The translations under genes were made by a program, and so were the position numbers. From Sphingomonas hankookensis (lineage in GTDB: Bacteria; Pseudomonadota; Alphaproteobacteria; Sphingomonadales; Sphingomonadaceae), in NCBI RefSeq assembly GCF_028551275.1, contig NZ_CP117025.1, positions 186,001-250,000 on the forward strand: a DNA stretch of 64,000 nt, in the 5' to 3' direction. A model generated the notes under the pieces. That model worked only from the letters and a program-made list of their open reading frames with translations, did no database searches and was not told the DNA's origin. Below are positions 32,776-45,316 of this stretch, piece after piece. Position 1 is the first letter of the stretch. Every line of letters starts with the position of its first letter.

Positions 32776-35520
32776 TTACTCCAGCACCTCGCCACCACCG
32801 CCACCGCCACCGCTGCCGTTAACAACCGTGTTGGTTTGGACGACTGCCGCCGCCGCACGACGTAGTTCCGTGACCTCCAGCGTCGATCCCGCGCGGACGT
32901 ATGTCGGTCCTTCCGTATCGAGACTGCGCAAGCGGAACGTGACGGTATGGCTTCCCGGCGCGATGCCAGACACGAACGCAAATGGGGTGATCGGGACAGA
33001 GCCACGAGAATTACTGTTGTCGAACGGCATTCGAACTCGCGCGGTCTGCGCTACGTTGCCATCCACCACGATTTCGCCCGTAAAGATAAGATCGTCGGCA
33101 TGGTCCGCCTGCGCGAACATCTGGACCTTTAGGACGCTATCGGCGTCAACCTTGTCGAATACGAACGAGATGACATCGGCGGTCGTATTGTAAGGACACG
33201 CCACGTCACTCGATAGTGTCGCGAAGCTGCTGCGTGAGGTAGCGGCGATTGCAAGGCTCGGGCTATCCACCGAACCAGCTTTGATCCGGTCAACCTCAAC
33301 GTCATACATCTTCACCTTGCCGCCATCGTTGGCGTCGGCGACGAAGTAGGATTTTCCGGTGTCCGGGTCTTCGATGCTGAATTTCTTTACATCGAACGCG
33401 ATGCTGCGGGTGCTTCCCTGCAAACGCAGACCCGACACTTTCCCGTTCGCAGTCAGGACAAGTTGGGCGGTAGCTTCGTTGCCGTTCAGTGCGCGAAGGA
33501 TGAACGCAATTTCACTGGATTGGCCACCGACCGTGGATCGCAGAGTGCGAACCGATTCCGCTACCGTCTTGGTAGTCGGGTCAGCCGGATCAACGGTTGT
33601 ACGGTCATAGCTGTTGATTGCAGCCGCGATGGGGCCGCCGGGGGCAATTATTTTTGCCTCTAAACCATCTACCTGACGGGCAATAGCACCGGTACGCGAA
33701 GTCAGAACTTCGTCGTATGACGATATGCGGGCTGAAACAGCGCTACTTACGTCCGCTGTCGTCAGGCTGCTTAATTCCGACAGCCGCGAAACCAGTGACT
33801 TGCCGGGTTCGATCTCGACCGTGGAACCGTTGAGGATGAAGGCTTGCCCGTCTGCCCGCTTCTGCCCGATCAACGAGACGGTATCGGTTATTGCCTTGTC
33901 GCCCTGCACCCGTTCTTGATCGATACGAGCTACGACAGGACCGAGCGGTAGACCGCTGACGTGTGTGATGTCTTCGTATCGTTGGCGGCGCTGTTCCGCC
34001 AAAAGCTGCGCATTGAGGATTGCGCGACCCGCTTCCACCTGCGCTACCTCGATAGGGGCGATCTTTCCCAAATCGGATATGACATCAATAACGGGTTTTC
34101 CGCCGACATCCGTTCCGACTGGTGCACCCTTGGTCGCGCCGTCCTCCAACGTCACGATTGCTGCACCGTTTTGGTCGAGGAGATTCAGGCCAGCCTTCGC
34201 GCCTACCGTCGCGTTGTCCTGCGGCTTTCCCGCTCCTGACGTGCCTGCCCAGGTCGATACCGTGCGGGCGTCCCCGGCCATGGCGTTCCATACGGCCTGG
34301 TGCTTTTCCCGGTACGTTGCCCAGCGGCTTTTGAACGCTGCGCGGTCGATCGGGCTGTTGACAGTGATGTCGGCGAGGAGCGGGGCTAGGTATGCCTTCA
34401 GGGCCTCATGGGCTGCGACATAGGCGTTCCATTCGGTCGCGGCGTTGTAGATACCAATCTTGCTGGCGATGGTGCTACGCTCGGCGGCAGCCTCCTCAAG
34501 CAATCGCTGATTGTCGATTTTCTCGCTGCGATCGAGGATGCCGTCGGCACCCATGTTGTCGATTTCGATTTCCGCGGCTTCCGCTGTGGCCTTAGCCAAA
34601 TCTGCGGTTTCCCTAACCAGCTCTAACGCGGCGTCCTGCTCTGCGATCGACCCGGCGAGTTCCAGCAGCTTGGGACTGATGTCAGAGGCGCTGTGTACGC
34701 CCCAGCAAGGGTTATAGCCGACCTCGACTTGCCATAGGGGATCAGCGACGTTGCGTTCGAGGATTGCCCCTACAGAGGGTTCTGCGGACCCGTCTGCGAG
34801 CAAGGGCTTTGCAGCCTTAGGCGCGAATGCGTTGCCAACCTGCCAGACGCCTTGATTATCTGAAATTAGATAGCCACCGGCATCCAGAACGGCCTTGCGG
34901 CAGACGGTTCCTACATCGACGGGTTCTTTCGAGTAGAATGACCAACCCTTGTTTGCGAGTGCGGCGAACGACCCAATTTCTGAGGCACTGAATTCAGCTT
35001 TGCGTAGGAGGGCTGGAACGATGTCCGCGACCGTATCGGGGTATTGGCCGTAGAAGATGCCGCCCTGCACGTCGGCGGTGATCTTCTTGTCGGATGCACC
35101 TCCAAGCCTGAACATACCAAGCGCATTGCACTTTGCCCATTCACCCGGCTTGAGGGTCAGGGCGGCGAGTTCGTTGTAGGTTCCTACAGTTGCGATAGGT
35201 GCGGCCAGCGCCTGCGCAAAGTCATAGACGGCTGCGATGTCTTGAACCGGTCCGTAGCCATGGACCTGATAAATCCACTTCGCGGCGTCTACTATAACGG
35301 GTTCGATACTGAGGCAGTGGCCGATGGTGATCGGCTTTACCGCGCCCTTCATGCCTACTGGACCTTCTCCACCTCCAGTTCCCGCGTACACTGCATTAAG
35401 GAGCGGTCGGTTCAGTCTTCCGGTTAAGGAGCGGAGAGCGACAGTAGCGGTTACGCCTTCGCGCTGAATACCGCTTGTGGTCGCTTCGAAGAGTTTGCGG
35501 TAAGAGGCAAAGGGTGATCC
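32776..35520 (-). pseudogene. Tail-tip / host-specificity (J-like) protein, N-terminus lost
   Basis: About 914 phage-encoded residues remain. The early part (TVALRSLTGRLNRPLLNAVYAGT through VEVGYNPCWGVHS) matches the beta domains of central tail-hub proteins. A coiled middle (ELAGSIAEQDAALELVRETA) is followed by a DUF1983-type region with DPDTGKSYFVADANDGGKVKMYDVEVDRIKAGSV. The C-terminus is beta-rich and ends in an eight-glycine run. The 5' end is cut by the IS3 element at 35521. The ORF continues 9 codons into the IS and picks up an ATG there (35547), so a fusion product could be made. The lost N-terminal domains carry the hub fold, so tail assembly should fail. Confidence 0.8.
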
Positions 35521-35583
35521 TGAGCTGCCCCCTTCTGAGTGGTCCATCGACTATGACAGTCTGGATCAAGGAAGGGACGACGC

Positions 35584-35862
35584 ATGCCTGCCAAGAAGCA
35601 CAAGCCTGAGGAGATCATCGGGAAGCTGCGTGAGGTCGAGATCATGCTGGGCCAGGGCGGGACGACCGCTGAGGCATGCCGGCGGATCGCGGTCAGCGAG
35701 CAGACTTACTACCGCTGGCGCAAGGAGTACGGCGGCTTGAAGACGGATCAGGCGCGTCGGATGAAAGATCTGGAGAAGGAGAACCTGCGGCTGCGGCGTG
35801 CGATCTCCGACCTGACACTGGACAAGTTGATTCTACAGGAGGCGGCGCGGGGAAACTTCTGA
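35584..35862 (+). CDS. IS3-family OrfA (copy A)
   Basis: 92 residues: a helix-turn-helix (EIIGKLREVEIMLGQGGTTA, SEQTYYRWRKEYGG) followed by a leucine-zipper-like helix (MKDLEKENLRLRRAISDLTL). This is the DNA-binding part of the OrfAB transposase. The heptamer GGGGAAAC region at 35850-35856 (G GGA AAC in codon phase) lies just before its TGA and fits a -1 ribosomal slip into orfB. Confidence 0.92.
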   Translation: MPAKKHKPEEIIGKLREVEIMLGQGGTTAEACRRIAVSEQTYYRWRKEYGGLKTDQARRMKDLEKENLRLRRAISDLTLDKLILQEAARGNF

Positions 35863-36416
35863 GCCCCGCGCGACGCCGACGCTGCATCGACCAGGTGCGA
35901 GAGGTGCTGTACGTATCCGAGCGGCGCGTGTGCCGCGTGCTGGGGCAGCACCGGTCGACACAGCGCAAGGTGCCGTGCGGGGCAGATGACGAAGAGGTGC
36001 TGACCGACGACATCGTCGCGCTGGCCAGGCAGTACGGGCGCTACGGCTACCGCCGGGTAACCGCACTGCTGCATGCGGCGGGCTGGTCGGTGAACCATAA
36101 ACGGGTGGAGCGGATCTGGCGGCGCGAAGGCCTCAAGGTGCCGCAGAAGCAACCTAAACGTGGCCGGCTATGGTTGAACGACGGCTCGTGCATCCGGCTG
36201 CGACCGGAGTATCCGGGGCATGTGTGGGCGTATGACTTCGTCGAAGCGCGGACGCATGACGGGCGCAAGTTCCGGATACTGACCATCATCGATGAGGCCA
36301 GCAGGGAATGCCTGGCACTGGTCGTCGCGCGCCAGCTTCGACACGAAGACGTGCTGGCAGCGCTTGCCGACCTGTTCATCGCGAGGGGTCCGCCCGCGCA
36401 TATCAGATCAGATAAC
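35857..36416 (+). pseudogene. IS3-family OrfB, 5' part (copy A)
   Basis: In the -1 frame relative to orfA. Visible segments are REVLYVSERRVCRVLGQHRS, YGYRRVTALLHAAGW and the first catalytic Asp in VWAYDFVEARTHDG. The part ends at PPAHIRSDN, right after the second catalytic Asp, where IS110 is inserted. The continuation starts at 38076 with GSEFIATA in the same frame. The transposase cannot be made while IS110 is present. Confidence 0.88.
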
Positions 36417-36629
36417 GTCCTAGGTCGGGAAGCAGCGGCGGCAAACGGCCAGCAGGTCTCATTGCGCCAATCACGATCAGCGCTGATGTTATTCTGATCC
36501 AGATGGCTTCCATCGTCAAGGAAAGCGCTCTCGGCCATAGCAAACACAGGATCCAGCGGCCGCTTCGGTCGTGGTCCTCACCGTCCTTAAAATGAGATGC
36601 GGGTGCCGGATGGAAGGCCCGAACATTAT

Positions 36630-37922
36630 CTACAGGGTCGCAGAAGCGCCCTCACGGCTCCACAGAGAGGGGTCCTTCCATCTGGTGTCCGCCCGTTCGA
36701 CGAACGGACGGTACTCGGTTCCCGTCTTGATGACGGCATGCGCGACGCGCGCCATCTTGGCGGTGAGTGCGGTCATCGCCTTGCGGCGGCGATCAGGATC
36801 GTTGCTGTGTCCGGCTACATAGCGCCCCAGCTTGTCACGGAAGCTGTTGTCGCGCTGTCGGATGGCAACCTGGGTGGCCATCCAGAAGGTCCGGCGCAGC
36901 CTGGCGTTGCCGTACTTCGAGAGCTTGGTCCGGCCGCGGAAAGTGCCCGACTGGCAAGTGGCGAGATCAAGCCCGCAGAACTTGAGGAACTGGCGGTGAT
37001 GGCCGAACCGGCGCAGATCGCCGGCTTCGGCGAGGATAGTCAGCGCGTTGATAGGTCCGATCCCTGGGATCATGCGCAGCAGCTGGTAGTCGCGGTTCTC
37101 GGCCAGCATAGCATGCGCGGTCCGTTCAATCTCGTCGCGTTGCCGGATCAAGCTGCGCGCCTGCGCGATGACCATGCGGAACATGGCGATCGATATGGAA
37201 TCCTCCTCGACCGGGAGCGCTATGGAGGCGCTAGCGGCCGCATAGATATCGTTGAGCAGTCGAGCCTTGGACACCTTGCGACCAACCAAGTCCCAAGCCT
37301 CGCGAGTGAATGCCTCCTGGCCAAGCGCGGTCATGCTGGCCGGGGTGGGGAACCGCTCAAGCAAGGCGAGGAACCAGTCGGAGCGGCTATTGCCGGCGAA
37401 GCGTTCGATCTCCGGAAAATAGAGCGGCAGATAGTGCGTCAGGAGGCGATGCCAGGTCTGGGTCTTGGCCTTGGAGATCGCCTCGTGCGTCTTCGACATC
37501 TCCTGCAGATCATTGATGCCGGCGGCAAGCGGATCGACGTAGCGCTGGGTCGCGCCGATCCGGAGCATGTGCAGGATCACCTGCGCATCCTTGCTATCGT
37601 TCTTGTCCCAACCATTGTGCAGCGCCTCTCGGGTCCGGGCCAGTGCGACGGAAGAAATCAGGCGCAACTCGAAGCCCGCAGCGAGCAGACGGTGCGCCAG
37701 GGTGCGGTGGTAGTTGCCGGTAGCCTCGAAGCCGACGATGATCGGGCGCCCGATATCGCCAAGATCGGTTGCGAGGCGATCATAGTCTGCCTTGGTCGCC
37801 ATCACCGTCATCCGCCGTCGGCGCCCGCCTTCGGGGCGCTCGATCAACACCTCCTGGCGATGCTTGGACATATCGATGGCTACCAGCACGGCGTCGGCGG
37901 GAGTAAATGTGCGCTTGGTCAT
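36630..37922 (-). CDS. IS110-family transposase A (DEDD recombinase)
   Basis: 430 residues. The RuvC-like DEDD domain has [12 protein letters not shown] (Asp), [14 protein letters not shown] (Glu) and [14 protein letters not shown] (Asp pair). The C-terminal Transposase_20 domain has [19 protein letters not shown] and the serine motif [20 protein letters not shown]. These enzymes move the element through a circular form using an element-encoded guide RNA. ATG 37922 begins the conserved part (MTKRTFTP). It differs clearly from transposase B at 39675 (my estimate by eye is roughly four residues in five identical). Confidence 0.93.
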
Positions 37923-38073
37923 GGTCGGTCCGTCTCCAAAGTGTTGAGTCGACAACTTCACTCTAGAGACCCGCTGGCCGGTCATGACCGCCTTGATGAA
38001 GCCGGCGGGCGCTACGCGCCCTTGTCTCCATCAAGGCGACGCGGCCCTTCGAGAGGCCGCTTCCCAATGTGCT
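37923..38073 (-). ncRNA. Candidate bridge/guide RNA region, IS110 element A 5' end
   Basis: On the transposase strand, CCTTGATGGA (38036-38027) pairs with TTCATCAAGG (38000-37991), including one G-U pair that exists only on this strand. An inner hairpin GGGCG / CGCCC with a CGTAG loop (38021-38007) sits inside. A separate hairpin, GCGGCC / GGCCGC, is at 38061-38041. Element B has the same fold with compensatory changes. Which end encodes the actual guide is not settled. Confidence 0.5.
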
Positions 38074-38075
38074 AC

Positions 38076-38414
38076 GGCAGCGAGTTCATCGCTACCGCGG
38101 TTCAGAAATGGCTCGGGCAGGTTGGCGTGAAGACGCTGTACATCGTGCCGGGTTCGCCGTGGGAGAATGGCTACAACGAGAGCTTCAACGGCTCGCTGCG
38201 CGATGAGCTGCTCAACGGCGAGATCTTCTACAGCCTCGCTGAAGCAAGGGTACTGATCGAGGCGTGGCGCCGTCACTACAACACCGTCCGGCCGCACAGC
38301 AGCCTGGGCTATCGGCCGCCCGCACCACAAGCGGCGACACCGCCATTGCCGGCCTCCGGTTCCGCTTCGCTCCACCTACGACCGGCAATGGCGGCGGAGA
38401 CGACAATGCACTAA
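38076..38414 (+). pseudogene. IS3-family OrfB, 3' part (copy A)
   Basis: Continues orfB after IS110: [37 protein letters not shown] with the third catalytic residue (Glu), then [19 protein letters not shown] and [13 protein letters not shown]. These are the standard C-terminal marks of IS3 integrase-type transposases. Confidence 0.88.
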
Positions 38415-38447
38415 CTAATAACCCGGACCACCCGATGGGGGCTGCTC

Positions 38448-38539
38448 ACCTTAGACCCCGCATACGGTCGTCATACTCGCCCTGTGCGACCCCACGACGC
38501 TGCGCGACGTTCCCATAGTCCCTGAGAGCGTCACGGGCG
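38448..38539 (-). pseudogene. 92-bp phage gene fragment trapped between two IS3 copies
   Basis: The complement is open and reads ARDALRDYGNVAQRRGVAQG then EYDDRMRGLR. This reads like coding sequence and continues neither IS. It is probably a remnant of a lost phage gene from the deleted morphogenesis block. Too short to assign. Confidence 0.45.
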
Positions 38540-38602
38540 TGAGCTGCCCCCTTCTGAGTGGTCCATCGACTATGACAGTCTGGATCAAGGAAGGGACGAC
38601 GC

Positions 38603-38881
38603 ATGCCTGCCAAGAAGCACAAGCCTGAGGAGATCATCGGGAAGCTGCGTGAGGTCGAGATCATGCTGGGCCAGGGCGGGACGACCGCTGAGGCATGCCG
38701 GCGGATCGCGGTCAGCGAGCAGACTTACTACCGCTGGCGCAAGGAGTACGGCGGCTTGAAGACGGATCAGGCGCGTCGGATGAAAGATCTGGAGAAGGAG
38801 AACCTGCGGCTGCGGCGTGCGATCTCCGACCTGACACTGGACAAGTTGATTCTACAGGAGGCGGCGCGGGGAAACTTCTGA
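38603..38881 (+). CDS. IS3-family OrfA (copy B)
   Basis: 92 residues, identical to the copy A OrfA at 35584. Same helix-turn-helix and coiled segment, and the same slippery heptamer (38869-38875) before its TGA. Confidence 0.92.
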   Translation: MPAKKHKPEEIIGKLREVEIMLGQGGTTAEACRRIAVSEQTYYRWRKEYGGLKTDQARRMKDLEKENLRLRRAISDLTLDKLILQEAARGNF

Positions 38882-39435
38882 GCCCCGCGCGACGCCGACG
38901 CTGCATCGACCAGGTGCGAGAGGTGCTGTACGTATCCGAGCGGCGCGTGTGCCGCGTGCTGGGGCAGCACCGGTCGACACAGCGCAAGGTGCCGTGCGGG
39001 GCAGATGACGAAGAGGTGCTGACCGACGACATCGTCGCGCTGGCCAGGCAGTACGGGCGCTACGGCTACCGCCGGGTAACCGCACTGCTGCATGCGGCGG
39101 GCTGGTCGGTGAACCATAAACGGGTGGAGCGGATCTGGCGGCGCGAAGGCCTCAAGGTGCCGCAGAAGCAACCTAAACGTGGCCGGCTATGGTTGAACGA
39201 CGGCTCGTGCATCCGGCTGCGACCGGAGTATCCGGGGCATGTGTGGGCGTATGACTTCGTCGAAGCGCGGACGCATGACGGGCGCAAGTTCCGGATACTG
39301 ACCATCATCGATGAGGCCAGCAGGGAATGCCTGGCACTGGTCGTCGCGCGCCAGCTTCGACACGAAGACGTGCTGGCAGCGCTTGCCGACCTGTTCATCG
39401 CGAGGGGTCCGCCCGCGCATATCAGATCAGATAAC
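38876..39435 (+). pseudogene. IS3-family OrfB, 5' part (copy B)
   Basis: Identical to the copy A fragment, again ending at HIRSDN where a second IS110 element is inserted at the very same base. Its continuation is at 41101. Confidence 0.88.
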
Positions 39436-39674
39436 GTCCTATGTCGGGAAGCAGCGGCGGGTTTCGGCCAGCAGATATCCATGCGCCGACATCTATCGGC
39501 GCGGCATGCAATCTGAGCCAGATGGCTCCCACCGTCAACGGGATCGCTCCCTGCCATAGCAAACATAGGATCCAGCGGCGCCGGGGCGGCCGTGGTCCTC
39601 ACCATCCTTAAAACGAGATACGCACCCAGGTGGAAGGCCCGAACATTATCTACAGGGTCGCTCGACGAGCGCCC

Positions 39675-40946
39675 TCACGGCACTTGCAGAGAGGGGTCCT
39701 TCCACCTGGCATCCGACCGTTCGAGAAACGGCCGGTACTCTGTCCCCGTCTTGACGACGGCGTGAGCCACGCGCGCCATCTTGGCGGTGAGCGCCGTCAT
39801 CGCCTTGCGGCGACGGTCGGCATCGTCCGCGTGCCCAGCGGTGTACCGTCCGAGCTTGTCGCGGAAGCTGTTGTCGCGCTGACGCGCGGCGACCTGGGCA
39901 GCCATCCAGAAGGTGCGGCGCAGCCGCGCGTTACCATACTTAGACAGCTTGGTGCGGCCACGAAACGTGCCCGACTGACACGTTGCGAGATCGAGACCGC
40001 AGAACTTCAGGAACTGTCGATGATGGTTAAAGCGACGTAGATCACCGGCCTCGGCCAGGATGGTCAGCGCGTTGATCGGACCAATGCCCGGAATGTTGCG
40101 CAGCAGCTGGTAGTCGACGTCATCGGTGAGCCGCGCATGGGCCAGCCGCTCGATCTCGTCGCGCTGGTGGATGAGGCTGCGGCCCTGCGCGATGACCATG
40201 CGGAACATGGTGATGGCGGCTGAGTCCTCCGGCACCGGCAGTGCCGTCGAGGCGGACGCCGTCTCGTAGATGTCGTTGATGAGGCGTGCCTTGGAGACCT
40301 TGCGGCCGATGAGCGGCCACGCCGCGGCCGAGAACGCCTCGCGGTCCAGCGCCGTGATGGTGGCCGGTGTCGGAAACTGCTCGATGAGCGCGAGGAACCA
40401 GTCGGACCGGCTGTTGCCTGCGAAGCGGGCAATCTCGGGGAAGTACAGCGGCAGGTAGTGGGTCAGGATCCGGTGCCAAGTCTGCGTCTTCATCCTGGAG
40501 ATCGTCTCGTGGGTCTTCGAGAGTTCCTGCAGGTCATTGATGCCCGCAGCAAGCGGGTCGACGTAGCGCTGCGTCGCGCCGATCCGCAGCATGTGCAGGA
40601 TGACCTGCGCGTCCTTGGGGTCGTTCTTGTCCCAGCCGTTGTGCAGCGCCTCGCGCGTTCGGGCGAGCGCGACCGACGATATGAGGCGCAGCTCGAACCC
40701 CGCCGTCAGCAGCCGATGTGCCAGCGTGCGATGGTAGTTGCCCGTCGCCTCGAAGCCGACGACGATGGGGCGGCCGATGGCCGCGAGTTGCTCGGCAAAG
40801 CCGTCATAGTCCTTCCTGGTCGCCATGACGGTCAGCCGCCGGCGCCGGCCGCCTTCGGGGCGCTCGATAAGGACCTCCTGCCGGTTCTTGGACATGTCGA
40901 TGGCTACCAGCACGGCGCCGGCAGGCGTAGAAGTGAGCTTGGTCAT
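39675..40946 (-). CDS. IS110-family transposase B (DEDD recombinase)
   Basis: 423 residues with the same catalytic motifs as transposase [60 protein letters not shown] and [17 protein letters not shown]. Differences are spread along the chain, for example AEQLAAIGRPIV against [12 protein letters not shown] and PVPEDSAAITMF against [12 protein letters not shown]. Its C-terminus is shorter (KDPSLQVP). ATG 40946 starts the conserved part. Confidence 0.93.
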   Translation of the reverse strand: MTKLTSTPAGAVLVAIDMSKNRQEVLIERPEGGRRRRLTVMATRKDYDGFAEQLAAIGRPIVVGFEATGNYHRTLAHRLLTAGFELRLISSVALARTREALHNGWDKNDPKDAQVILHMLRIGATQRYVDPLAAGINDLQELSKTHETISRMKTQTWHRILTHYLPLYFPEIARFAGNSRSDWFLALIEQFPTPATITALDREAFSAAAWPLIGRKVSKARLINDIYETASASTALPVPEDSAAITMFRMVIAQGRSLIHQRDEIERLAHARLTDDVDYQLLRNIPGIGPINALTILAEAGDLRRFNHHRQFLKFCGLDLATCQSGTFRGRTKLSKYGNARLRRTFWMAAQVAARQRDNSFRDKLGRYTAGHADDADRRRKAMTALTAKMARVAHAVVKTGTEYRPFLERSDARWKDPSLQVP

Positions 40947-41098
40947 GGTCGGTCGGCCTCCAAAGTGTTGTCTCGACAACCTCACTTTAGATACCTGCTG
41001 GCCGGCCATGGCTTGCCCTGATGAAGCCTGCGGCCGCTACGCGGCCTTGTCTTCATCAGGGCCATAGCGGCTCCCGAACCAGCGCTTCCCGATGTGCT
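40947..41098 (-). ncRNA. Candidate bridge/guide RNA region, IS110 element B 5' end
   Basis: On the transposase strand, CCCTGATGAA (41061-41052) pairs with TTCATCAGGG (41025-41016), 10 bp. The inner hairpin is GGCCG / CGGCC with loop CGTAG. Relative to element A, one outer pair changed T-A to C-G and one inner pair changed G-C to C-G, keeping the fold. This is what a selected RNA looks like, though only two sequences are compared. Confidence 0.5.
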
Positions 41099-41100
41099 AC

Positions 41101-41439
41101 GGCAGCGAGTTCATCGCTACCGCGGTTCAGAAATGGCTCGGGCAGGTTGGCGTGAAGACGCTGTACATCGTGCCGGGTTCGCCGTGGGAGAATGGCTACA
41201 ACGAGAGCTTCAACGGCTCGCTGCGCGATGAGCTGCTCAACGGCGAGATCTTCTACAGCCTCGCTGAAGCAAGGGTACTGATCGAGGCGTGGCGCCGTCA
41301 CTACAACACCGTCCGGCCGCACAGCAGCCTGGGCTATCGGCCGCCCGCACCACAAGCGGCGACACCGCCATTGCCGGCCTCCGGTTCCGCTTCGCTCCAC
41401 CTACGACCGGCAATGGCGGCGGAGACGACAATGCACTAA
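41101..41439 (+). pseudogene. IS3-family OrfB, 3' part (copy B)
   Basis: Identical to 38076-38414: [26 protein letters not shown] with the catalytic Glu, and the [12 protein letters not shown] ending. Joined to 39435 it would restore OrfB. Confidence 0.88.
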
Positions 41440-41652
41440 CTAATAACCCGGACCACCCGATGGGGGCTGCTCAGTTTCTCAATCTAGAAAATAGATAGGC
41501 TGCGCTACCCACCCGACCTACAGAGAGAAGGGGTAATACCCCTCGGCCCTAGACCCGATCGTCCTGCCCCGTAGAGGGGCCGTACAGGGTCACGACGGGC
41601 ATTCAGCATACCTGATAGCCCCTTGGGCCTTAGACCCTCACAGACGCTCGCT

Positions 41653-41772: not shown

Positions 41773-42142
41773 ATGATCGTAGGGTACGCGAGGGTCAGTA
41801 CGTCGGAACAGGACCTGACGTTGCAGCTAGAGGCATTGGCCCGTGCAGGATGTGAGAAGGTCTTTAGTGAGAAGGTCAGTGCCTCGTCGGGCGATCGTCA
41901 GGAGTTCAATCGTTGTGTGGAGTTCGTCCGTGAGGGCGACACACTTGTGGTTACACGGCTTGACCGCTTCGCACGTTCGTCACTCGACCTGCACAACACA
42001 ATGGCGCAGTTGAAGGACAAGGGCGTAGGCTTCCGCTCTACCGAACAAGGGGAGTTCGACACCACGAACAGCATGGGAAAGTTCGTCCTGGCCATGATGG
42101 GCGCGGTTGCTGAGTTCGAAACGGACCTTCGCAGAGAGCGTC
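41773..42142 (+). pseudogene. Serine resolvase/invertase, 5' part, split by IS66
   Basis: The catalytic domain is complete: GYARVSTSEQDLTLQ with the nucleophile Ser, VTRLDRFARSSLDLH, and the E-helix start GKFVLAMMGAVAEFETDLRRER. IS66 enters in the E helix. Removing IS66 and one 8-bp target copy joins RRER to QREGIEQAKAKG in frame, giving about 178 residues, the normal size of a Tn3-type resolvase. Without the C-terminal part the fragment cannot bind res. Confidence 0.88.
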
Positions 42143-42201
42143 GTAAGCGTGGCCTGAGGGCCGCCTTGCCCGTTTGGCCGTAGCCGGGATGCTTATCGTC
42201 T

Positions 42202-43038: not shown

Positions 43039-44598
43039 ATGCGGGTGCTGGAAGCGCCTGTTTCCCCTGCTGATGCCACCGCGCGGATCGCCGCGCTGGA
43101 GGCATCGCTCGCCCGGGCGAATGCCGCGCTCGCCGCCCGCGATCTGCTCATCGACACGTTGCGCGGGCAGATCGCCCGACTGCGGCGGATGCAGTTCGGT
43201 GCCTCCTCCGAGAAGTTGGGCCGCGAGATCGAACAGCTCGAGCTGGCGCTGGAAGAGCTGGAAACGGAGCGGGATGTTTCCGAAGTCGAGACTGCGGCGC
43301 CTGGAGTAGCGCCGCGCCTGGCACCGGTCCGCAGTCTGCCGGAGCATCTGCCGCGCGAGGAGGTCGTCCACGAGCCGGCGTCCGGTATCTGCACCTGCCC
43401 GGACTGCGGTGGTGCGCTGCGCCGGCTGGGCGTGGACGCGCACGAGATGCTCGACATCGTGCCGGTGCGCTGGCGGGTCGTGCGCAACGTCCGCCCCAAA
43501 TACAGCTGCCGGTCTTGCGAGAAGATCGTCCAGGCACCCGCGCCGGTCAGCGCTGTGGCGCGGGGCAAGGCGACCTTCGCGACGCTGGCGCACGTCGTCG
43601 TCTCCAAGTTCGACCACCATCTGCCGTTGTACCGCCAGGCCGAGATGATGGCCGCGCAGGGGCTCGAGATCGACCGCTCGACGCTCGCGGGCTGGGCCGG
43701 GCAAGCTGCAGCACTGCTCGACCCGGTGGTCAGCCGTATCCGTGACGAGGTGCTCAAGGCCGACAAGATCCACGCCGACGACACGCCGGTGCCGGTGCTC
43801 GAACCCGGCCGTGGCAAGACCGCGACCGGGCGGCTGTGGGTGTACGCCGCCGACGACCAGGCGTCCGGCAGCACGACACCGCCCGCAACATGGTATCGCT
43901 TCACGCCCGACCGCACCGCGGCGCACCCGCAGGCGCATCTCGCCGGCTTTCGCGGCTTTCTCCAGGCCGATGCCTATGCGGGCTATGACGCCCTGTACCG
44001 CGGTGGCGTCACAGAGGTGGCATGCTGGGCACACTTCCGGCGCAAGGTGTTCGACCTGCACGAGCGCCTCTCCACGCCGCTGACCACCGATATCCTAGAG
44101 CGCATCGGCGCGCTCTATGCCGTCGAGGCGGAGGTGCGTGGTCAGCCGCCGGATGTACGCCGTCGAGCGCGACAGGAACGAAGCCAGTCGCTGGTCGACG
44201 CCTTGCGCGAGGTGCTCGACGCTGCCCTTCGCCGCCTGTCGCCCAAGTCCGACATGGCCAAAGCCATCGCCTATGGCACCAAACGCTGGCCGGCGCTGTG
44301 CCGCTTCCTGGGTGACGGGCGTCTGGAGATCGACAACAACATCGCGGAGCGGGCCCTGCGCGGCGTCGCCGTGGGAAGGCGCAACTGGCTGTTCGCGGGT
44401 TCGCGCGCAGGCGGCGAGCGAGCCGCCGCCATCTACACCGTCATCCAGACCTGCAAGGCCAACGGCGTCGACCCGCAGGCCTATATCGCCGATGTCATCG
44501 CCAGGGTCGCCGGCGACTGGCCCGCCACCCGCTGGGACGAGCTGATGCCGTGGAACTGGGTGCCCCAGACAGATCAGCCAACAGCCCAAGCCGCATAA
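43039..44598 (+). CDS. tnpC: IS66 transposase TnpC
   Basis: About 519 residues. An N-terminal coiled region (IAALEASLARANAALAARD) is followed by a zinc ribbon (CTCPDCGGALRRLG and YSCRSCEKIVQAP). The DDE core has IHADDTPVPVLEPG, FLQADAYAGYDAL and LEIDNNIAERALRGVAVGR. A GTG at 43024 is an alternative start. The enzyme carries out the cut-and-paste chemistry. Confidence 0.94.
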   Translation: MRVLEAPVSPADATARIAALEASLARANAALAARDLLIDTLRGQIARLRRMQFGASSEKLGREIEQLELALEELETERDVSEVETAAPGVAPRLAPVRSLPEHLPREEVVHEPASGICTCPDCGGALRRLGVDAHEMLDIVPVRWRVVRNVRPKYSCRSCEKIVQAPAPVSAVARGKATFATLAHVVVSKFDHHLPLYRQAEMMAAQGLEIDRSTLAGWAGQAAALLDPVVSRIRDEVLKADKIHADDTPVPVLEPGRGKTATGRLWVYAADDQASGSTTPPATWYRFTPDRTAAHPQAHLAGFRGFLQADAYAGYDALYRGGVTEVACWAHFRRKVFDLHERLSTPLTTDILERIGALYAVEAEVRGQPPDVRRRARQERSQSLVDALREVLDAALRRLSPKSDMAKAIAYGTKRWPALCRFLGDGRLEIDNNIAERALRGVAVGRRNWLFAGSRAGGERAAAIYTVIQTCKANGVDPQAYIADVIARVAGDWPATRWDELMPWNWVPQTDQPTAQAA

Positions 44599-44631
44599 AC
44601 TGCGGTCCTCACGCCACGCTTACAGAGCGTC

Positions 44632-44795
44632 AACGAGAGGGCATTGAGCAAGCCAAGGCCAAGGGACGCTACAAGGGCAGTCAGGCCCGCATAGACCCTG
44701 CTAGGGTGCGAGCGATGCTGTCTGAGGGCATGAAGCCCAGCGAGGTAGCGAGGACGCTGGGGATTAATCGGGCGACCGTGTACCGCCTGCGTTAA
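44632..44795 (+). pseudogene. Serine resolvase, 3' part, split by IS66
   Basis: Continues the resolvase at GIEQAKAKGRYKGSQARIDP and ends with the helix-turn-helix SEGMKPSEVARTLGINRATV YRLR that binds res. It overlaps the convergent small-terminase gene by 4 bases, so its stop region is shared with a phage gene. Confidence 0.85.
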
Positions 44796-45316
44796 ACCCC
44801 GTCACCGCCTTCACCTTCAATGGTGTTCCAGTCGATAATGACGGACTGGTGCTGAACCACATCCATCTGCACTTTGTCTCCAAACCGCTTTCGGTTCGCA
44901 TACCGCTTGCGCTGCGCCAGAACGCTTACCAACAGATCGTCGTAGCGGAAATCACCCGTTGCGAAGCCGGGAACCTTGCGCGCGATCAATTCCGCGACAT
45001 CATCCAAGGCGTAGGTCCCCTCCTCGCGGGCAGTATTGAAGCGATCCTGTAGCTCTGGGTCACTGCGCTTCCAAGCCATTACAGTTTGGTATCCTGGCAT
45101 CGCGGGATCGTTGCAGATCATCACAAGTGCCTCACCGCCTTCCAATCTGCTGCATATTTCATCGATGATAGCGTCAGTACGCTTTGTCGGTTGCCCAGGG
45201 CGATTGCGGGTTGCTTCTGCCGTAATGCTTGTAACGACAGGCACCAACTCACCCATTATGGTCTGGGTGTGAACCTTAGTCGTCTTGGCTTGTATCTGCT
45301 TGGTATTCTCGTCCAT
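44792..45316 (-). CDS. Terminase small subunit-like protein
   Basis: 174 residues. A helix-turn-helix region has KRTDAIIDEICSRLEGGEAL and MICNDPAMPGYQTVMAWKRS, the pattern of phage small terminases that recognise pac/cos sites. The middle helix ELQDRFNTAREEGTYALDDVAELIARK and the C-terminal VSVLAQRKRYANRKRFGDKV are also family-like. The large subunit, which should follow downstream at lower coordinates, is missing; IS66 and the resolvase lie there instead. The ATG at 45316 has a TAAATA box 4 bases upstream. Confidence 0.75.
   Translation of the reverse strand: MDENTKQIQAKTTKVHTQTIMGELVPVVTSITAEATRNRPGQPTKRTDAIIDEICSRLEGGEALVMICNDPAMPGYQTVMAWKRSDPELQDRFNTAREEGTYALDDVAELIARKVPGFATGDFRYDDLLVSVLAQRKRYANRKRFGDKVQMDVVQHQSVIIDWNTIEGEGGDGV

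Follow-up and report, generated by a model that had tools for sequence, protein, structure and literature searches.

The DNA analysed here, a stretch of 64,000 nucleotides from Sphingomonas hankookensis (assembly GCF_028551275.1, contig NZ_CP117025.1, positions 186,001 to 250,000; called the window below, with positions counted from its first base), contains two copies of an insertion sequence (IS) of the IS3 family, each interrupted by an element of the IS110 family. The IS3 copies lie on the plus strand at 35521..38448 (left arm 35521-36416, right arm 38076-38448) and 38540..41473 (left arm 38540-39435, right arm 41101-41473), with 91 bp between them, and they are identical: neither the left arms (896 bp) nor the right arms (373 bp) show a single difference. 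In both, the orfB gene is broken directly 3' of the codons for Ser-Asp-Asn (S-D-N), at GATAAC/GGCAGC (here and below a slash marks the point of insertion). The target half GATAAC, encoding Asp-Asn (D-N) and so including the second catalytic aspartate of the IS3 transposase, is at 36411..36416 (+) in copy 1 and 39430..39435 (+) in copy 2, and the half GGCAGC, encoding Gly-Ser, at 38076..38081 (+) and 41101..41106 (+). The NCBIfam profile transpos_IS3 matches the left arms up to profile position 283 and the right arms from position 284.

Both inserts are on the opposite strand. Element A (1659 bp, 36417..38075, -; ends set by comparison with empty IS3 copies) carries a recombinase gene for 451 aa (36630..37985, -), and element B (1665 bp, 39436..41100, -; ends set by comparison of the IS3 arms and with a twin copy described below) one for 444 aa (39675..41009, -). 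The two proteins match Pfam PF01548 and PF02371, and score 212.7 and 216.6 bits, respectively, against NCBIfam NF033542 (IS110 family RNA-guided transposase; cut-off 140). Alignment of the A recombinase locates D38, E87, D130 and D133, which we take to be its DEDD residues, and a QSG motif. An initial annotation, made from the letters alone, had placed the two inserts at these coordinates and at one shared base of identical IS3 arms, and all of this holds. It had also described the two transposases as different, which they are (84% protein identity), within DNA that differs along its whole length: overall identity is 79.0% over 1666 aligned columns, every 100-column block contains differences, and full blocks have 69 to 89 matches. 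The longer non-coding part of each element is located 3' of the transposase gene (tnp). There the annotation saw strong differences, which are indeed present, but the stretch from which we predict the target is identical in A and B; the sole identical run of at least 30 bp is GCGACCCTGTAGATAATGTTCGGGCCTTCCA (31 bp), around the GAUAAUG of the predicted target loop.

The rest of the genome (3.95 Mb in four contigs) makes it possible to ask how this arrangement arose. It contains six identical copies of the window IS3, one copy of 86% identity and two partial left-arm matches. Of the six, one is occupied by A, one by B and one by a third type, B', which has 75 differences in 1658 bp from B and sits at the same base; the other three (L006, L007 and L009) are empty, reading uninterrupted GATAACGGCAGC with arms unchanged. 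Comparison of filled with empty copies shows the insertion to be exact and without target duplication. A has a twin on contig C3 (no differences over 1652 bp) in an IS3 host whose arms are only 48-51% like those of the window, and B a twin on contig C2 (no differences over 1658 bp) in a host with arms 86-88% like them. Thus, divergence inside identical surroundings is found together with identity inside divergent surroundings, which indicates separate insertions into the same site. All five copies of these element types in the genome are at the D-N codon pair of IS3-type genes, which exceeds what chance would give in a genome with 349 GAYAAYGG octamers. As for the IS3 copies themselves, no obvious 3-4 bp repeat flanks five of the six, and the copy carrying B' (G000:C1:820136) has CCCG on both sides.

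To see how far this site preference extends, relatives were taken from a scan of one genome per species (the best 80 of 141 loci being kept), with more copies from family searches and plasmids, giving 94 unique flank pairs after removal of repeats. Locus L103 was excluded throughout, the tandem L084 from the sequence logo and the guide counts, and the right ends of L094, L095 and L098 were also set aside; counts of donor guides and core bases exclude loci with fewer than 12 flank bases. The elements are patchily distributed: at E values of 1e-30 or better, they occur in three other genomes among 398 from the phylum and in two others among 385 from the class. Our statement that the site is invariant is based on element ends placed by fuzzy matching without any demand on the flank (80 loci), together with further loci. 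In the 80, the left flank ends in CC in all 71 readable cases (nine unreadable), and the right flank begins with GTT(A/G)TC in 71 of 74 (six unreadable); the three exceptions are L084, L094 and L095, the last two with misplaced ends. Among 20 further or re-fetched loci, 15 have both ends, all with CC and GTT(A/G)TC, three have a right end only (GTTGTC in L151 and L153; L148 is likely to be a false placement) and two have no end pair. CC and GTT(A/G)TC are likewise invariant in the logo of 68 unique sites, but the logo and the core count used end patterns that demand GT(T/A), or GTT(A/G)TC in rows L136-L168, and so are not independent. Flank conservation beyond these bases tracks the Glu-Phe codons of IS3, and falls at the IS481, mutL and mtgA sites described below.

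In terms of protein, 82 of 83 readable N-side arms end in D-N (in the exception, L084, the element abuts a second IS110), and every one of the 85 C-side arms has G as its first residue; by profile, 75 are rve-like. Elements of only 45-50% identity (L155, and L162 on its sole readable side) occupy the same codons, as does ISRel25 (L165), which splits IVSDN/GTEL; in ISMex12 (L164), the single side that was read begins with GPEF. The initial annotation had proposed that recurrence in the SDN-G codons would argue for fixed targeting, and scattered copies at unrelated targets against it: recurrence is what the genomes show, and unrelated targets are rare (three of the 83 N-side junctions), these too being broken at GAYAAC.

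Which genes are hit? By N-side arm, 68 of the 83 hosts are IS3-like (67 by profile, and L140 by a 15-residue end), eight are IS481 (L037, L059, L062, L074, L075, L093, L100 and L166), one is IS30 (L076) and one an IS481-like rve protein (L136), so that DDE transposases account for 78 of the 83. Three are other genes (L064, antisense in mtgA; L082, hchA; L146, an unknown open reading frame (ORF)); in the two of these for which both sides were read, L064 and L146, GG follows the break. The remaining two hosts are L049, too short to say, and L084. The arms of this set had themselves been used to train the host profile, and NCBIfam therefore served as an independent check: at E 0.001 its IS3 model is matched by 52 of 64 N-arms and 58 of 65 C-arms, and the NCBIfam models place the break at one homologous column (283/284 in IS3, 196/197 in IS481 and 197/198 in IS30). 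In six loci (L065, L075, L087, L102, L160 and L101), a single IS110 lies between arms of two different hosts, for example an IS481 N-arm and an IS3 C-arm, or in L101 an IS3 N side and a mutL C side. Such mixed arms reflect either recombination at the shared codon or misassembly, and carry no weight in our argument. In L084, the right end of one IS110 directly abuts the left end of another (GTAGCACCTACGG), forming a junction tandem, and the right end of L168 apparently adjoins another IS110.

Read in the sense of tnp, the stretch at the 3' end of the gene can be folded into two similar modules, each made up of an outer stem, a left guide, an inner hairpin and a right guide; each stem, as drawn, contains a bulged A. 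This is the organization expected of a bridge RNA with a target loop followed by a donor loop; its predicted core is at 36526..36685 (-) in A, where it overlaps the tnp stop, and at 39545..39709 (-) in B. In a test of the fold with 32 elements, the most distant of 44% protein identity, pairing was present in 94.8% of 1110 cells (46.5-53.1% when partners were slid by one column as a control), and 22 of the 35 pairs had changed on both sides. Double changes numbered 106, against 28.8 after shuffling, and none of 500 shuffles was as high. By eye, L155 and L168 have quite different outer stems of the target loop with the same bulged A. We also considered TTCGGGCC as a second match to the target, and rejected it, as in L155 the segment co-varies with its stem partner and the GGGCC appears, again by eye, to be structural.

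The first module would supply the target guides. Its 5' side has GCCGU in all 76 unique combinations, and its 3' side GAUAAUG in 71 and GACAAUG in five. In A, the predicted left guide (GNGCCGU) is at 36654..36660 (-) and the right one (GAUAAUG) at 36624..36630 (-), inside the 31-bp identical run; the counterparts in B are at 39677..39683 (-) and 39644..39650 (-). For the top strand, C(R)TT(R)TC, the pairing partner would be GAUAAUG, whose two U residues lie opposite the A or G at the third base of the Asn codon and of the Asp codon; for the bottom strand it would be GCCGU, with C or T opposite the core G. Since the RNA bases at codon third positions are thus capable of wobble (U with A or G, G with C or T), several spellings of the same codons should be accepted. 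The target of 10-15 bp suggested in the initial annotation is indeed short and fixed, although the core matched by guides is nearer 9-11 nt.

The second module, in the same way, resembles the joined ends of the element. In A, the predicted left donor guide (AGGACG, 36582..36587, -) matches the right end (..AGGAC/G), and the right donor guide (UGCUAUG, 36536..36542, -) can pair with the left end, C(R)TAGCA. Among 71 elements, 66 have an AGGAC or AGGAU that matches the right end TAGGAC, and 66 have a GCUAU opposite the left end TAGCA. Where ends have changed, two relatives show compensation: L155 has AGUCCCG for the end TAGTCC and ACUAUG for the end GTAGTA, and L165 has UGUUAUG for the end GTAACA. 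The base at the left junction is G in 46 and A in 25, and that at the right is always G. In the scheme described for IS621, the left guide pairs with the bottom-left and the right guide with the top-right strand, the second core base, T, is nearly invariant, and a GT core is allowed (Hiraizumi 2024, PMC11208158). Retention of the target's own core base on the left, with constant G on the right, is as expected if cores are exchanged in this way.

Taken together, these observations make us highly confident of an explanation in which A, B and their relatives are a single IS110 lineage with a 3' bridge RNA, inserted separately at the same base. An RNA encoded by the non-coding DNA on the 3' side of tnp would guide the recombinase: its target loop (GNGCCGU, GAUAAUG) would pair with the Asp-Asn/Gly codons that include the second catalytic aspartate of a DDE transposase, and its donor loop (AGGACG, UGCUAUG) with the ends of the element once joined. 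Within this explanation, comparative sequence analysis directly supports independent insertion, the fixed site, the conserved RNA fold, the match of guide and target, and donor-loop compensation in two relatives. The RNA is presumably made, bound and used as a guide. By analogy with other members of IS110, each element would have entered its IS3 copy as a circle, in a separate event, with strand exchange as in those relatives, and the interrupted IS3 copies have probably lost their function.

Several observations weigh against this explanation or fit it imperfectly. In the fold, further pair types number 48, hardly above the shuffled 44.3 (29 of 500 shuffles were as high), and one outer donor pair is formed in just 65.6% of cells. 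As the target is invariant in the clade, the target guide lies beyond a covariation test. GACAAUG guides occur at G targets only (five of five), which has little weight when GAUAAUG guides are at 53 G and 18 A targets; position -3 of the left guide matches just 48 of 71 targets, and further out there is a weak association at -5 (shuffle p 0.008) and none at -4 or at -6 to -10. Among the 71 elements scored for donor guides, two with changed right ends (TAGGCC and TAAGAC) keep AGGACGG without compensation, and in two no left donor guide was found. Two elements with TAGTAC keep GCUAUG and one with TAGCAC has GUUAUG, where pairing would be wobble at best; the right donor guide of L155 fits at six of seven positions, and in L168, from a Rahnella plasmid, the donor loop misfits the left end (GTTATACC) while the target-loop segments are conserved. 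L031, L032, L077, L078, L098 and L103 yielded no right end, and L094 and L095 no true one. Lastly, a match of 8-10 nt leaves the dominance of transposase genes unexplained by itself, as the S. hankookensis genome has 349 octamers of the form GAYAAYGG on its two strands (the reversed control pattern has 311).

This last point leads to the most serious alternative, that the guide is short and loose and the bias to transposases is mostly a matter of survivorship, insertions into IS genes being harmless and those into host genes being lost. The 349 octamers would allow this, as would the junctions in mtgA, hchA and the unknown ORF, the mutL C-side arm and the variation of positions beyond the guide. 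On the other hand, octamers that are intergenic or in non-essential genes should then be occupied too, and 78 of 83 junctions in DDE transposases is extreme. We regard survivorship as the main cause as rather unlikely; it is in any case compatible with guided insertion, and concerns why IS genes dominate and not how the base is chosen. Probably the guide fixes the base, and the abundance of IS copies and the harmlessness of inserting into them explain the 78 of 83.

It is much harder to sustain the idea, raised in the initial annotation, that one resident IS110 was swapped for another in place, by homologous or RNA-guided exchange. The junction tandem L084 speaks for this reading, and hosts with arms from two transposase groups (L065, L075, L087, L102 and L160) suggest that recombination occurs there. 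However, three empty identical IS3 copies exist, the twin of A is in an IS3 with 48-51% similarity, from which plain homologous recombination would bring foreign flank, and the mixed arms may have arisen by misassembly of repeats; we think replacement very improbable. Even less probable, in our view, is that the recombinase itself and not an RNA reads the site. With a target fixed across the clade, covariation gives no means of telling guide from protein, but a reading by the protein would leave aside the conserved fold with its invariant loops, which match both target strands in the published IS110 order, the donor-loop compensation and the RNA guidance demonstrated for IS110 relatives (PMC11208160 and PMC11187229). 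Duplication of a single IS3::IS110 composite, with inserts that then diverged or were converted, would suit the identical arms only 91 bp apart, but has almost nothing else to recommend it: as the annotation remarked, simple duplication would give identical inserts, the alignment that it proposed gives 79.0% identity inside (21% difference along the whole length) and no differences in the arms, a conversion tract was looked for between A and B and none was seen, and the exact twins that A and B each have in another IS3 host rule it out. Independent hits by relatives with matching guides, which the annotation had offered as one possibility, are by contrast favoured by these twins, by B', by the recurrence of the site and by the shared target loop.

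Where do these elements belong among known systems? The N-terminal DEDD domain (PF01548) and the C-terminal PF02371 with its SG motif are those of the IS110 family. Elements of the IS1111 group usually have subterminal inverted repeats (sTIRs) of 11-13 bp with 7/3-bp extensions (PMC11187229). A and B have only GGGAAGC/GCTTCCC (here the two repeats; 7 bp) with extensions of about 10 bp, and several relatives do not have even the 7-bp GGGAAGC. The guide order is also not that of IS1111, because the bottom-strand match (GCCGU) is 5' of the top-strand match (GAUAAUG) in the RNA. A non-coding region (NCR) downstream of tnp is an IS1111 feature, but according to the same source it is found in some IS110-type elements too (PMC11187229). 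Two of the IS1111 features tested, the long sTIR and the guide order, are thus absent, and we file A and B under IS110; of the double label IS110/IS1111 given in the initial annotation, the first half is retained, as an IS110 type with a 3' RNA. As in bridge RNAs and seekRNAs, there is a conserved fold with internal target and donor loops, and the guides are complementary to the target and to the joined ends, with covariation for the donor loop only (L155 and L165) and with the exceptions given above.

The closest parallel is ISEc21, which targets codons around the second D of the DDE triad in certain IS3 members (Siddiquee et al. 2024, PMC11187229). The niche of a hyper-parasite on IS3 catalytic codons, which the initial annotation had perceived, is therefore real but had already been published. 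The two share an RNA-guided IS110 recombinase (guidance being predicted in our case), the IS3 codons, the lack of a target duplication, and a bottom-strand match 5' of the top-strand match in the RNA; they differ in that ISEc21 has an upstream NCR and a 358-aa transposase, against a downstream NCR and 444-451 aa here, and in that the A/B lineage also hits IS481, IS30 and another rve host, the targets given for ISEc21 being certain IS3 members. With IS621 there is a likeness in the target and donor loops, each composed of stem, left guide, hairpin and right guide, and in strand order (Durrant 2024, PMC11208160; PMC11208158). IS621 differs in having its RNA in the left end, a CT core and a chain of 328 residues. 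Its targets are REP sequences. The IS1111 group (IS4321/IS5075 in Tn21-family ends, where IS4321 reportedly targets the terminal repeats, and ISKpn4 in attC) resembles A and B in its downstream NCR and in parasitizing mobile elements, and differs in having proteins of 330-350 aa, against 451 aa in A, and in guide order, that of A and B being IS110-like.

ISMex12 and ISRel25, IS110 elements named in plasmid annotation, are members of the A/B clade; a literature search for these names found no paper, and a search of titles and abstract openings found no report of IS481 or IS30 targets or of this 3'-RNA lineage. As far as the literature searched goes, then, what is new here is the lineage with a 3' RNA and a recombinase of 444-451 aa, its hosts beyond IS3, the clade-wide count, the account of codon tolerance by wobble, and the replicate within one genome with empty controls. 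We propose that the resemblance to ISEc21, which we compared by description only, is convergent. Tentatively, it may be imagined that in a lineage separate from ISEc21 the guide has come to follow a protein motif, wobble bases at third codon positions letting one RNA recognize Asp-Asn/Gly in IS3, IS481 and IS30. The lineage would then be an inherited means, guided by RNA, of inactivating transposases that compete with it, and might allow transposase halves to be shuffled through arms exchanged at one homologous codon.

The S. hankookensis genome amounts to a natural replicate experiment for RNA-guided transposition, with three diverged elements at one target base in identical hosts, and empty controls, all in a single genome. 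The guide has been retained while element proteins drop to 44-47% identity, and through wobble one DNA guide can track a coding motif from one gene family to another. Should the target loop prove to act as predicted, the bridge recombinases of this lineage, with their 3' RNA, could be compared with those of IS621 and ISEc21, and the lineage would exemplify the disabling of some mobile elements by others.

Neither of two further IS110 families in the genome (L020-L025) is inserted at D-N/G. One of these types (389 aa) has three copies, L023 (G000:C1:3996-7232), L025 (G000:C2:12854-16090) and L024 (G000:C1:3428335-3431571), two of them inside an IS5-family transposase gene (ASSLRV/..GRLIGRTKGGMNTKLHA) and the third elsewhere; the right flank of L023 matches NF033580. 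This is possibly a second transposase-targeting IS110.

At the gathering scores of Rfam, a tRNA was the only match in the whole window. A long ORF with matches to PHROG families, one of them a tail protein, extends over 32776-35547 and 38449-38539 and is apparently interrupted by both IS3 copies, and an ORF resembling a terminase small subunit lies at 44792-45316; because of the tail-protein match and the terminase-like ORF, the window seems to include prophage-like DNA. Finally, a serine-resolvase gene (PF00239) at 41773-42183 is apparently split by a set of IS66-like ORFs, and an ORF at 44550-44795 resembles, by eye, the C-terminal part of the split resolvase.

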